DNA of 64,000 nt from Thalassotalea psychrophila (GTDB lineage: Bacteria; Pseudomonadota; Gammaproteobacteria; Enterobacterales; Alteromonadaceae). A model generated the notes under the pieces. That model was not told the DNA's origin and ran no database searches. It worked only from the letters and a program-made list of their open reading frames with translations. Position 1 is the first letter of the stretch. Each line of letters starts with the position of its first letter. The translations under genes and the position numbers were made by a program. Of this stretch, positions 19,033 to 22,625 are shown in pieces. The stretch is taken from assembly GCF_031583595.1 (NCBI RefSeq), contig NZ_CP134145.1, positions 4,650,001 to 4,714,000 on the forward strand. The letters are read 5' to 3'.

Positions 19033-19059
19033 CAGTATTAATTTTCACTATTAATACTG
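19033..19059. terminator. bidirectional inverted repeat between ybdG and tesB
   Basis: CAGTATTAAT (19033-19042) and ATTAATACTG (19050-19059) make a perfect 10-bp stem with a 7-nt loop. It overlaps the last codons of tesB and lies 30 nt after ybdG. It is low in GC, so termination strength is uncertain. Confidence 0.45.
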
Positions 19060-19908
19060 TCTTATTACGCCTTCTTGCGCGGTAGATGCAACAAGCTGAC
19101 CTTGTTGATTGTATATCTTGCCGCGCACTAAACCTCGGCCACCACTTGCTGAAGGGCTATCAATGTCGTACAACAACCAATCGTCAAATTTAAAATCACG
19201 ATGAAACCACATAGAGTGATCTATGGTTGCAATTTGGAAATCTCTTGACCAAATGCTGCGCCCATGTGGGTGTACTGCCGTTGGTAAAAAGTTATAGTCA
19301 GAAGCATAGCCAAGTAAGTATTTATGAATACGTAAGTCATTGGGGATCTCACCCTTAGCTCTCATCCATACTTGATTTTTTGATGATGATTTTTTTGGCT
19401 TTAACCAGTCATATTCCTTCACTGGACGAAACTCAATTGGTCGCTCGGCAAAAATTGTATCGTGCATAGCCACAGGAATAGAATCTTTATGTTGCAGTTG
19501 TAATGCTTGAATAGTAGCAAGCCCTTCTGGGCCAACAACCGAAGGCATTTCATCTTGATGCTCAAAGCCAAGCTCTTCGATTTGAAATGAAGAGGTTAAA
19601 TTAAATATGGCCTTACCATTTTGCATCGCTTGCACTCGTCTAGTACTAAAGCTTCTACCATCACGGGTTATTTCTACAATATAGGTAACCGGCTTTTTAG
19701 CATCGCCGGGACGAAGAAAATAGGAATGAAAAGAATGTAATTGGCGCTCTTGCGCTAATGTTTGTTTAGCCGCAGACAACGCTTGTCCGATAACTTGTCC
19801 ACCAAATAACGCTTTAAAGCCTAGATCTTGGCTTTGGCCAATAAATAAATTGTCATCTAATTTCTCTAACTCTAACAGGCCTAACAGCTCATCTAATACT
19901 TTACTCAT
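19051..19908 (-). CDS. tesB: Acyl-CoA thioesterase II
   Basis: 285 residues, the typical TesB double-hotdog length. Motifs include LFGGQVIGQALSAAKQTL, HSFHSYFLRPGDAKKPVTYIVEITRDGRSFSTRRVQA and, in the second half, IATIDHSMWFHRDFKFDDWLLYDIDSPSASGGRGLVRG. The conserved Asp of the catalytic triad lies in IATIDHSMWFH. It hydrolyses medium to long acyl-CoAs in the cytoplasm. The gene appears monocistronic. Confidence 0.95.
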   Translation of the reverse strand: MSKVLDELLGLLELEKLDDNLFIGQSQDLGFKALFGGQVIGQALSAAKQTLAQERQLHSFHSYFLRPGDAKKPVTYIVEITRDGRSFSTRRVQAMQNGKAIFNLTSSFQIEELGFEHQDEMPSVVGPEGLATIQALQLQHKDSIPVAMHDTIFAERPIEFRPVKEYDWLKPKKSSSKNQVWMRAKGEIPNDLRIHKYLLGYASDYNFLPTAVHPHGRSIWSRDFQIATIDHSMWFHRDFKFDDWLLYDIDSPSASGGRGLVRGKIYNQQGQLVASTAQEGVIRQY

Positions 19909-20058
19909 TAAGTTTCCTAATTATTTTCGGGCTTGTTTAGTATGCCATTAAAACCCGTATAAACCCTTATAAATCAAGGAAAACTCGCTAATTATCATGA
20001 TTTTTTTGTAAAAAGGTTTACAGCAAGGTTAATTTGACTATAATCACAGTTAGGGCTA

Positions 20059-20187
20059 CTTAGCTCGTCCAAGGCAAACCTAGTGAAAACTGGGGACGCA
20101 AAGTTACCGGTCTAAAGATATTTTTGCAGTTTAAAAAGTATCAATGACAGCGGGACTGCCGACTAAGATATTGCGGGGGCTTATCTT
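20059..20187 (+). ncRNA. c-di-GMP-I (GEMM-I) riboswitch
   Basis: The aptamer covers 20059-20167. All class I hallmarks are present: AGGCAAACC; a 6-bp P2 hairpin capped by a GAAA tetraloop (CCTAGT-GAAA-ACTGGG); GGGACGCAAAG; CCGGTCTAA; and a 3' stem GACAGCGGGACTGCCGA. A P1 can form from CTTAG (20059-20063) and CTAAG (20163-20167). An alternative hairpin AAGATA/TATCTT (20165-20170 with 20182-20187) would compete with P1, as expected of an expression platform. Class I aptamers bind cyclic di-GMP. The only frame directly downstream on this strand is 42 codons (ATG at 20205) ending in low-complexity and REP sequence, so the switch looks orphaned. Confidence 0.92.
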
Positions 20188-20258
20188 TATTAGCAATCCT
20201 TGTTATGACTGTTTCTTTGCGTGCCTTGTCTTATCTTCTACCATTTTCCAATGACTTT

Positions 20259-20294
20259 CTGACTTCGTTTCTCGTTTCTCGTTTCTCGTTTCTA
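20259..20294. repeat. short tandem repeat (CGTTTCT, about 4 units)
   Basis: After GACTT the 7-mer CGTTTCT repeats four times between the orphan riboswitch and the DUF885 gene. It is a low-complexity tract prone to slippage. It falls within the only short frame downstream of the riboswitch and adds to the impression of decayed coding sequence. Confidence 0.55.
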
Positions 20295-20341
20295 AATATA
20301 ATGTCAGCGTCCATGCCAACATACAAAACTTAAGGCCCTAA

Positions 20342-20378
20342 GATCCTGAAATGAATTCAGGACGACACTAGAGTGTCG
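20342..20378. repeat. REP-like double palindrome overlapping a gene end
   Basis: TCCTGAA (20344-20350) and TTCAGGA (20356-20362) form one stem. CGACACT-AG-AGTGTCG (20363-20378) forms a second, immediately adjacent. The element covers the stop codon and last seven codons of the DUF885 gene. It resembles the elements at about 15.06 and 27.9 kb and may act as a terminator for that gene. Confidence 0.55.
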
Positions 20379-22129
20379 ATTTCAGCCTGCTTTTGGGCAA
20401 TATAATCTCGAATTATTGTTTCTAGTAAAGACAATGGTATTGCACCATTTTTCAATACTTCATCATGAAACTCACGTAAGTCGAAATGTTCTCCCAACGC
20501 TTGCTCTGCTTCCACTCGTAATGCTTTAATGGTGATTTCACCAAGCTTGTACGATAGCGCTTGTGCTGGCCACGAAATATAACGGTCTATTTCTGTTTGA
20601 ACATTATGTAATGACAATGCCGAATTACTTGCTAGATAGTCCATAGCTTGCTGTCTTGTCCAACCTTTCATATGCATGCCAGTATCAACCACTAAACGCA
20701 CAGCCCGCCACATCTCATAAGTTAAACGACCAAATCTTGAATACGGGTCTTGATAAAAACCAGCTTCAATTCCTAAGTATTCAGAATATAAACCCCATCC
20801 TTCACCAAAAGCTGAAATATAGGTCTCATTACGAAACTCAGGTACGTTCTCCATCTCTCGAGCAATTGAACCTTGTAAGTGATGTCCTGGAACAGCTTCA
20901 TGCAACGTAAGCGCTTCTAATACGTACAAAGGTCGGCGATCTAAGGCATAAGTGTTTACCCAGTAGTTACCTGGTTGATCGTCACGACTGGGGCCAGAAT
21001 AACGCCCAGTTGTATACTTAGGCGCTAGGCTTGCCGGAACCGGTATTACACCATATGGCGTACGGGGTAGAGTTTTAAATAAAGATGGCAACTTGGCATC
21101 CATCTTTTTCGCAATATAAGAGGCTTCTTTAAGTAACTGCTCAGGTGTGGTTGCATAAAATTGTGGGTCCGTTCTTAAAAATTCAACAAACTCAGCAAAG
21201 CTACCTTTAAATTCAACTTCCTTTATCACCTCTTCCATTTCAGCACGAATTCTTGCGACTTCTTTTAAACCAACATTATGAATTTCATCAGCATTCATCG
21301 TTAATGTAGTGTAGTGCTCAATTCTATTTTGATAGAAATCTGCGCCATTAGGAAAATCTTTGGCGGCAATAGTTTGACGTGCGTTAGGAATGTAAACATT
21401 AACCATAAAATCATAAAAACGCTGATACATTGGGTTAATATTTTCACTTATTATTTTTTGCGCTTGTTGTTTTAATTCGTCTTGTTGTTCAGTCGATATA
21501 TGATCCGGCATTGTTATAAAAGGACGATAGAACTCACTTTTTGTCACGTCTTCAACAATTAGTGAACTAATACTATATTCAAAACCTTCTAATACGACTT
21601 GTGGCTGGCTTATACCTGACTCCAAGCCTTTCTTCATCCAATATGTTTGCTGTTCAAAATACGTATCTAAGGCAATTAATCGCTGTAAATAAGTTTGATA
21701 ATCTTCACTTGATTTAAACGTTGAGCGGTTCACCATAAAAGTCATGTAGGCATGAAATCCACCCTCGGCAGTTATCGGCAAATAATGATCAAAGTTCTGA
21801 TAGGAATCGATTTCATTTTTTAATTTATAAGCCAAAATAGTATGGTTTATTTGGTTGTCAAAGCTTAGTGTAGATTTATCGATAGCTTGCAAGCGTTGAT
21901 ATATACCAGCCGTTATTTCATGATCTTTCGCCAGCGCTTCTGGTGATACATCATAATAAAGAATATTGTTTTCTTTTTTAAATGGGTTTAATGAGTCCTG
22001 ATACGTTTTTTGCTCATCAATAATTTGTAACAACTGGGCGTCGCTAGCTTGTACTTGTTCGTTGTCATCTGTTTGAACACATGAGAAAAGTAGGGCTATA
22101 GGAAAAAGGATAAAAATTAGTTTGTTCAT
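20357..22129 (-). CDS. DUF885-family lipoprotein, putative metallopeptidase
   Basis: 590 residues from the ATG at 22129, which gives a lipoprotein signal (MNKLIFILFPIALLFSC, lipobox cysteine 17). A longer frame to 22186 lacks a sensible signal and was not used. The DUF885 zinc-site motif HEAVPGHHLQ lies in the C-terminal half, followed by AFGEGWGLYSEYLG and DTGMHMKGWTRQQAMDYL. Family members are predicted M-type metallopeptidases anchored in the periplasm, with substrates unknown. It lies 37 bp after the DUF523 gene. The last codons fall inside a REP-like palindrome, so the C-terminus (DTLVSS) may be a recent replacement. Confidence 0.87.
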   Translation of the reverse strand: MNKLIFILFPIALLFSCVQTDDNEQVQASDAQLLQIIDEQKTYQDSLNPFKKENNILYYDVSPEALAKDHEITAGIYQRLQAIDKSTLSFDNQINHTILAYKLKNEIDSYQNFDHYLPITAEGGFHAYMTFMVNRSTFKSSEDYQTYLQRLIALDTYFEQQTYWMKKGLESGISQPQVVLEGFEYSISSLIVEDVTKSEFYRPFITMPDHISTEQQDELKQQAQKIISENINPMYQRFYDFMVNVYIPNARQTIAAKDFPNGADFYQNRIEHYTTLTMNADEIHNVGLKEVARIRAEMEEVIKEVEFKGSFAEFVEFLRTDPQFYATTPEQLLKEASYIAKKMDAKLPSLFKTLPRTPYGVIPVPASLAPKYTTGRYSGPSRDDQPGNYWVNTYALDRRPLYVLEALTLHEAVPGHHLQGSIAREMENVPEFRNETYISAFGEGWGLYSEYLGIEAGFYQDPYSRFGRLTYEMWRAVRLVVDTGMHMKGWTRQQAMDYLASNSALSLHNVQTEIDRYISWPAQALSYKLGEITIKALRVEAEQALGEHFDLREFHDEVLKNGAIPLSLLETIIRDYIAQKQAEIDTLVSS

Positions 22130-22166
22130 AGGGGATTCTCTTTTTGAGTATGACCGTATTAAACTC

Positions 22167-22625
22167 TTACGCTCTATTGTAGTCAATAATTAATTGTGCA
22201 AGTGTTAACTCGCTGTAAACAGCTATACCATGATCACTTAGTAACTGTGCAGTAACGCCTTTGCCATTAACTTTAGTGCCATTAAAGTCACCATTATAAA
22301 CTTGATTGCTTCCGCATGATGGACTGTATTCTTTGAGAAGGGCAAATTTTATCTGATGTTGTAAGCATAGACCTAAAGCGTGTTTGGCTCCTTGCTGAAA
22401 TTGCTCGCTAACATCGACACCAAACTCATCAATCACTTTATTGCCAACTTGTTCGGCTCTAGCTCTTGGCACAGACAAACCGCCGGACACTTCAGGGCAA
22501 ATAACAACTAAACAGCCCTGTTGTTGCCAAGTAGTAATTTGGGGATCAACAATAGATTTAGTCTTGCCGTCATACCTAACTTTATTACCTAAAAAGCAGC
22601 TGCTAATTAATATTTTACTAATCAT
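22167..22625 (-). CDS. DUF523-family protein
   Basis: 152 residues. The conserved DUF523 features are ISSCFLGNKVRYDGKTK at the start, CPEVSGGLSVPRARAEQVG in the middle, and KEYSPSCGSNQVYNGDFNGTKVNGKGVTAQLLSDHGI. Cysteines at the three blocks are invariant in the family and may bind metal or take part in sulfur chemistry. The biochemical role is not known. It overlaps the 3' end of the antiporter gene by 8 bp, so the two are translationally coupled. Confidence 0.85.
   Translation of the reverse strand: MISKILISSCFLGNKVRYDGKTKSIVDPQITTWQQQGCLVVICPEVSGGLSVPRARAEQVGNKVIDEFGVDVSEQFQQGAKHALGLCLQHQIKFALLKEYSPSCGSNQVYNGDFNGTKVNGKGVTAQLLSDHGIAVYSELTLAQLIIDYNRA

Follow-up and report, generated by a model that had tools for sequence, protein, structure and literature searches.

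The function of most known riboswitches is read from the gene that follows them, and a conserved switch RNA without a fixed neighbour raises the question of what role a riboswitch has if the RNA is its own output. This question is posed by a locus of Thalassotalea psychrophila located in a stretch of 64,000 nucleotides (contig NZ_CP134145.1, positions 4,650,001 to 4,714,000; hereafter the window, with positions counted from its first letter). A previous sequence-only reading of this locus had recognized a complete c-di-GMP-I riboswitch with no intact gene behind it, and had proposed that the RNA outlived its target gene, drives a very small peptide, or acts as an antisense RNA into a DUF885 gene. 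The analyses described here confirm the observation, for which the comparison with relatives that it proposed was a good test, and partly support that interpretation. They indicate that the locus is probably a free-standing gene, about 195 nt in length and found in the Colwellia/Thalassotalea group, for a c-di-GMP-gated RNA that would itself be the output.

The aptamer was identified by cmscan: positions 20063-20163 of the plus strand matched the RF01051 (c-di-GMP-I) model end to end (1-87 of 87) and scored 75.5 bits, where the gathering score is 35 (E 5.2e-13). At the gathering threshold this was the sole Rfam match in the window, the 4.8-Mb genome contained a single RF01051 match, and a laxer scan of 20059's surroundings (19900-20400, E up to 1) revealed no family beyond the clan of RF01051. 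Using the Rfam consensus alignment and a 55-row alignment, the core stretches GGCAAA and GACGCAAAG, helix P2 with its GAAA loop and helix P3 were all found; GACGCAAAG (20095-20103, plus strand), which is the partner of the 3' strand described below, was invariant in the 55 rows. By covariance model the window RNA is a genuine, complete c-di-GMP-I aptamer, as had been claimed, and ligand binding is predicted. It retains a G at position 20, which we take to be the residue favouring c-di-GMP over cGAMP. As read from the sequence, the P1 strands CUUAG (20059-20063) and CUAAG (20163-20167) can pair, and the AAG of CUAAG doubles as the foot of a hairpin at 20165-20187, in agreement with the earlier suggestion that P1 can compete with a second hairpin.

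Only frames of 36 and 42 codons follow the aptamer on its strand, so that the absence of an intact gene was corroborated; the 42-codon frame (20205-20333, plus strand) that had been described as the sole one exists, but it is not alone. This 42-aa frame is not a gene: among 15 same-genus copies its ATG is present in one, a TTG start occurs in three more, giving 23, 24, and 44 codons, and a stop occupies the very start codon in four. The 36-aa frame ends after nine codons in nine of the 15. A small peptide was rejected as the product, since both plus-strand frames fail in relatives and conservation drops after 20232; a related copy with the short frame conserved as a real gene was looked for in the 15 same-genus copies and was not seen. 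The CGTTTCT tandem tract noticed previously is present from 20266, outside the RNA unit, and its length differs between relatives. Arrays of at least three exact CGTTTCT units gave 29 pattern hits in this genome, grouped into 13 places: the five before 2.0 Mb all lie on the minus strand, and the eight beyond 2.77 Mb are all plus-strand arrays, as if their orientation followed the replication arms. The palindrome that had been called a REP element also exists (CCTGAAATGAATTCAGGACGAC, 20345-20366, just past the DUF885 stop), although the REP label is doubtful and unproven, with a single copy under the patterns tried (one in the window for a looser pattern, one in the genome for an exact longer pattern).

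Comparison with relatives suggests that the conserved unit exceeds the aptamer and corresponds to an RNA of about 195 nt (about 20050-20245). A set of 78 distinct copies was gathered using a pattern that demanded GGGGGCTT and TTTGC, and the occurrence of these two motifs in the 78 copies is consequently no evidence. Alignment A1 comprised 55 of the 78 copies (less than 93% alike) and alignment A2 50 of those 55. The layout common to relatives begins with a promoter, a 5' hairpin, the aptamer and the GGGGG-loop hairpin; after a spacer that varies come CTTTGCG and a pyrimidine tail. The predicted promoter (20017-20044, plus strand) has TTTACA as -35 (20017-20022), a 16-bp spacer and TATAAT as -10 (20039-20044); such a pair was found in 75 of the 78 copies, with a 16-bp spacer in 69 of them, and in 0.5% of the letter-shuffled upstream stretches used as control. 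It is followed by hairpin P0 (GGGCU/AGCUC; 20053-20066, plus strand), which overlaps the 5' strand of P1; a P0 stem of at least 4 bp was present in all 78 copies with diverse stem sequences, a count made without a shuffle control. The post-aptamer hairpin AAGAUA...GGGGG...UAUCUU (20165-20187, plus strand) is supported by covariation: 98.2% of its cells were paired and two-sided changes occurred in three of its seven pairs, a figure reached by none of 500 shuffles. Its GGGGG loop was invariant.

The sequence-only reading had stopped at 20187, but the conserved RNA continues to a 3' anti-aptamer strand, CUUUGCGUGCCUUG (20215-20228, plus strand), whose sequence complements the aptamer core. Its part CUUUGCGU (20215-20222) would be able to pair with positions 20096-20103, and GCCUUG (20223-20228) with CAAGGC (20070-20075). 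A pyrimidine-rich and then U-rich tail (20224-20245, plus strand) is predicted as the likely 3' end of the RNA. Across the copies, pyrimidine content was 91-95% at 10-19 nt past the start of CTTTGC and approximately background by about +30. The mean agreement of the 15 genus members with the window, calculated per 20 nt, was consistent with these boundaries: 0.84-0.99 over 20053-20112, 0.56-0.72 over 20113-20152 (the P3 loop side), 0.88-0.91 over 20153-20192, 0.55 over 20193-20212 (the spacer), 0.94 over 20213-20232, and only 0.17-0.48 past 20232. A simple scan of the 250 nt downstream, applied to 77 of the 78 loci (the remaining one was too near an end), detected a canonical terminator in five, with 0.6 expected in shuffles; by eye, at least three of these five sit inside DUF885.

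The distribution of this extended RNA was determined with R2, a covariance model derived from 50 copies that covers the 3' part and excludes the aptamer. In the window, R2 matched 20161-20232, thus starting at the end of the aptamer match. It matched at least 100 of 395 family genomes (a lower bound, because the family and order searches were run with stricter filters that drop weak matches), with one match apiece, in 18 of 52 sampled genera and in 15 of 15 genomes of the genus. One genome without an R2 match (G060) yielded a full-length copy to the full model R1 (88.4 bits), and two others (G084 and G121) gave weak matches to R1 and none to R2. Among 394 genomes sampled from the order, ten were matched, all of them within this family. 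Some genomes of carrier genera have lost the RNA. RF01051 itself was found in all 15 searched genus genomes, the one of the window included; in two of them a second RF01051 match lies elsewhere (L033 in G010 and L034 in G012). An exact pattern scan of GTDB species genomes, which misses copies with a long P3 loop such as those of several same-genus members, retrieved 58 stretches: 50 titled Colwellia, Cognaticolwellia, Thalassotalea, Thalassomonas, Litorilituus or Colwelliaceae, six Alteromonadaceae, one Gammaproteobacteria and one Endozoicomonas. The named strains GAB14E and ND2E of Colwellia psychrerythraea were among the carriers, and some same-genus copies were identical to those of contigs titled Thalassotalea (L016 to L118 of strain ND16A, L013 to L144, and L021 to L109). 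The contig titled Endozoicomonas sp. G2_1 (L117) contains the same RNA copy as a genome of this family (G015), with Colwellia-type neighbours, and its record is probably mislabelled.

The 3' strand distinguishes this RNA from ordinary c-di-GMP-I loci. An aptamer-only comparison was carried out with 71 loci, partly the best-scoring rows of longer lists, of which 59 were parsed and 12 unparsed ones left out. CTTTGC was present in 39 of 39 extended loci (those with GGGGGCTT) and in none of 20 ordinary ones, and the core was predicted to pair with the 3' strand in 39 of 39 versus one of 20. In ensembles of the full RNA, the pairing of CUUUGC with GACGCAAAG had a mean probability of 0.996 and exceeded 0.5 in all 78 copies, and the outer strands CAAGGC/GCCUUG had a mean of just 0.47. 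Helix P3 became less probable as the transcript was lengthened: its mean probability was 0.90 in a transcript ending at the aptamer (above 0.5 in 75 of 78 copies), 0.76 after adding the GGGGG hairpin (64 of 78), and 0.012 at full length (0 of 78); in the copy of the window (L001) it was already 0.20 once the GGGGG hairpin had been added. The predicted fold would therefore be a two-state one, with P3 formed while the RNA is short and dismantled at full length. In fold energies that omit the ligand and tertiary contacts, the closed form was more stable than a crudely constrained aptamer form by a mean of 11.7 kcal/mol (3.5-16.2), and switching would for this reason probably have to be co-transcriptional.

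The outer strands CAAGGC/GCCUUG and their variants paired at -8.79 kcal/mol within sequences versus -8.03 between sequences, and none of 5000 permutations was as good, an advantage that may reflect relatedness. An extension of the pairing into UUACCG showed no such advantage (-13.04 within versus -13.11 kcal/mol between; 3779 of 5000 permutations as good) and was rejected. The anti-aptamer helix displayed no independent covariation: six of its eight core pairs never vary, the other two depart via broken pairs only, and its five outer pairs showed no two-sided change. In the count for the anti-aptamer fold the two-sided changes were all in P2, the number of two-sided pairs was reached by 43 of 500 shuffles and the number of pair types by 486 of 500. 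Covariation thus fails to prove the anti-aptamer pairs, because these are invariant, one-sided or broken. RNAalifold chose GGCAAA, the first aptamer strand, as the preferred partner of the 3' strand; this CUUUGC-GGCAAA pairing was discarded, with a mean probability of about 1e-6 in single-sequence ensembles.

In the window, the RNA is flanked upstream by a divergent tesB-like acyl-CoA thioesterase gene (19051-19908, minus strand; PF02551, PF20789, and PF13622) and downstream by a convergent DUF885 gene (20357-22186, minus strand; PF05960, 557.9 bits), so that the next gene is antisense, as previously stated. Neighbours were surveyed at the 78 loci using 11 query proteins, the downstream side being present in 74 and the upstream side in 77. 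The nearest downstream gene was an antisense one in 56 of the 74 loci (DUF885 in 54, DUF523 in one, and an RNase_T-domain protein in one) and a sense GGDEF gene in 18; a frame-based look at 56 loci agreed (DUF885 in 44, GGDEF in 10, and one each of the others). Upstream, a TPR protein was encoded in 62 loci and tesB in 15. Within the genus, the thioesterase gene is divergent upstream in all 15 genomes, and antisense DUF885 lies downstream in 14, its place being taken in G010 (L017) by a DUF523/2-thiouracil desulfurase gene. A conserved sense gene directly downstream, such as a cis riboswitch would have, was not observed (the sense GGDEF gene is limited to 18 of 74 loci), and neither was one same antisense gene at orthologous loci, as would be characteristic of an antisense riboswitch (DUF885 in 54, another gene in 20). 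A gene for an RNase_T-domain exonuclease, which resembles oligoribonuclease, follows DUF885 in 12 loci (L106, L115, L125, L130, L133, L138, L139, L141, L142, L146, L149, and L154) and GGDEF in L132, and adjoins the RNA in L145; oligoribonuclease would degrade pGpG, a breakdown product of c-di-GMP.

The converse situation was also found. Four genomes (G154, G244, G300, and G310) have kept the TPR and DUF885 genes, and the RNA between them is deleted or decayed: none to two of six core motifs are left in them (0/6 in G300; 2/6 in G310, both 4-mers), in comparison with six in the intact control G021. In G154 (L200) no aptamer core motif was found between TPR and DUF885, and a drifting 3'-domain-like piece with CTTTGCG remains. 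Another genome, G387, gave neither an RNA match nor a TPR match. The RNA and its neighbours are therefore doubly dissociated, neighbours varying with the RNA kept and neighbours being kept with the RNA decayed, which makes a main role for one adjacent gene unlikely and indicates, at the level of sequence comparison, that the unit is independent of particular neighbours.

These data bear on the proposal that the RNA outlived its target gene and is now a drifting relic. There is no gene behind the aptamer, and the GGDEF and TPR proteins encoded beside the RNA in other genera were not found in the genome of the window: the TPR query, which matches other genera, had no match there, and the GGDEF query gave 17 matches, all to the C-terminal GGDEF-domain part with 30% identity at best, and no full-length relative. 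A GGDEF gene is in fact sense-oriented near the RNA in many relatives. However, DUF885 stands between the RNA and GGDEF in 11 of the 78 loci, and many loci are too short to be judged, so that a simple lost-target story is weak, though conceivable. Those 11 loci suggest that the genes once stood in the order TPR-RNA-DUF885-GGDEF-DUF523 and that losses followed on both sides. The parts of the RNA outside the aptamer are conserved in 15 of 15 genus members and in 18 of 52 genera with differing neighbours, whereas the true relics in G300 and G310 look quite different, so that a relic appears extremely improbable.

The RNA might alternatively be a terminator switch acting in cis, in which the product of read-through matters, either as antisense RNA into DUF885 or as sense transcription of GGDEF. 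Its closed stem followed by a pyrimidine tail has a terminator-like layout, the scarcity of canonical downstream terminators (five of 77 loci) agrees with it, DUF885 antisense (54 of 74) and GGDEF sense (18 of 74) are the usual neighbours, the tail lies at most 25 nt from the DUF885 frame or overlaps it in a number of loci, and c-di-GMP riboswitches were the family most enriched in antisense position in a published survey (PMC9943018). Antisense action into DUF885, as suggested in the sequence-only reading, is indeed possible where DUF885 adjoins, but the RNA is also kept in the 20 of 74 loci with another gene. Moreover, the genome of the window retains it and has no full-length relative of the GGDEF protein, genomes with a decayed RNA still contain DUF885 and TPR, and in the genus there is no conservation past 20232; we consider this alternative unlikely. 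A reservoir or sponge for c-di-GMP, as proposed for merRNA, would merely bind and store the messenger. For such a function speak the lack of a conserved reading frame, the free-standing nature of the unit, whose promoter was matched in 75 of 78 copies, and the merRNA precedent itself; nevertheless, a pure sponge needs neither a conserved GGGGG-loop hairpin nor a conserved 3' strand predicted to destroy the binding site, and the conservation of this strand makes a pure sponge rather unlikely. Taken together, the double dissociation and the conserved anti-aptamer strand favour a c-di-GMP-gated RNA that is itself the output.

Among known systems, merRNA of Bdellovibrio bacteriovorus is the closest precedent: it is a massively expressed RNA of 445 nt, reported from the Bdellovibrio lineage only (PMC3627812), proposed as a reservoir and regarded by its authors as not being a classical cis switch. 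Both RNAs are free-standing and contain a c-di-GMP riboswitch, and neither has a conserved ORF downstream. Unlike merRNA, the RNA of the window is about 195 nt long, has a conserved 3' anti-aptamer strand and a GGGGG hairpin, and occurs in 18 of 52 sampled family genera. No Bdellovibrio record was among the 58 stretches from the exact pattern scan of GTDB genomes. With cis c-di-GMP-I (GEMM-I, RF01051) riboswitches it shares the aptamer, with a full-length model match; it differs from them in that an antisense gene, not a sense one, is next in 56 of 74 loci, and in a 3' part that folds back on the aptamer core, which it does not in 19 of the 20 ordinary RF01051 loci compared. Riboswitch RNAs that act in trans are known from Listeria (SreA and Rli55), with other ligands and other folds, and like them the RNA described here would act away from its own gene. 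For c-di-GMP, the most enriched family, the antisense riboswitch survey counts 152 antisense and 2,554 sense cases; the one Colwellia case that it names, A3Q33_07785 of strain PAMC 21821, is possibly this locus (PMC9943018). Like the antisense-acting riboswitches presented there, the RNA mostly faces an antisense gene; unlike them, it persists without a DUF885 neighbour in 20 of 74 loci, and in 42 of the 44 DUF885 loci measured its 3' strand stops short of the DUF885 frame. No description of a free-standing c-di-GMP RNA in the Colwellia/Thalassotalea group was found in the open-licence literature, among the matches listed.

A mechanism for a c-di-GMP-gated RNA gene can be proposed on this basis. 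The RNA would be transcribed from its own predicted sigma70-type promoter, and the aptamer would fold first during synthesis. When c-di-GMP is absent, the 3' strand, which is transcribed about 110 nt later than the core, would pair with core strand GACGCAAAG around helix P2 and, more weakly, with CAAGGC; this pairing would dismantle the aptamer and close the RNA into a long stem before the pyrimidine/U-rich tract. Stem and tract would probably end transcription in this ligand-free state, a terminator role predicted from the fold. When c-di-GMP is bound, the aptamer would be held and the 3' strand and tail would stay open. We infer control by c-di-GMP and action on something besides the neighbouring gene, probably in trans.

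Matched once in every one of the 100 positive genomes, this RNA provides a compact test case for riboswitches that are their own output. A further suggestion is that, before other c-di-GMP riboswitches labelled as orphan or antisense are taken for relics, one should look in them for a conserved 3' anti-aptamer strand. More tentatively, and as a possibility to which we give well under even weight, it might be the first widely conserved small RNA triggered by c-di-GMP: the ligand would keep the aptamer folded, free the pyrimidine-rich 3' strand to pair with the ribosome-binding sites of several mRNAs, and leave the invariant GGGGG loop exposed. If this were true, the RNA would be an RNA counterpart of PilZ-type effectors in the motile-to-sessile decision of a whole marine bacterial group.
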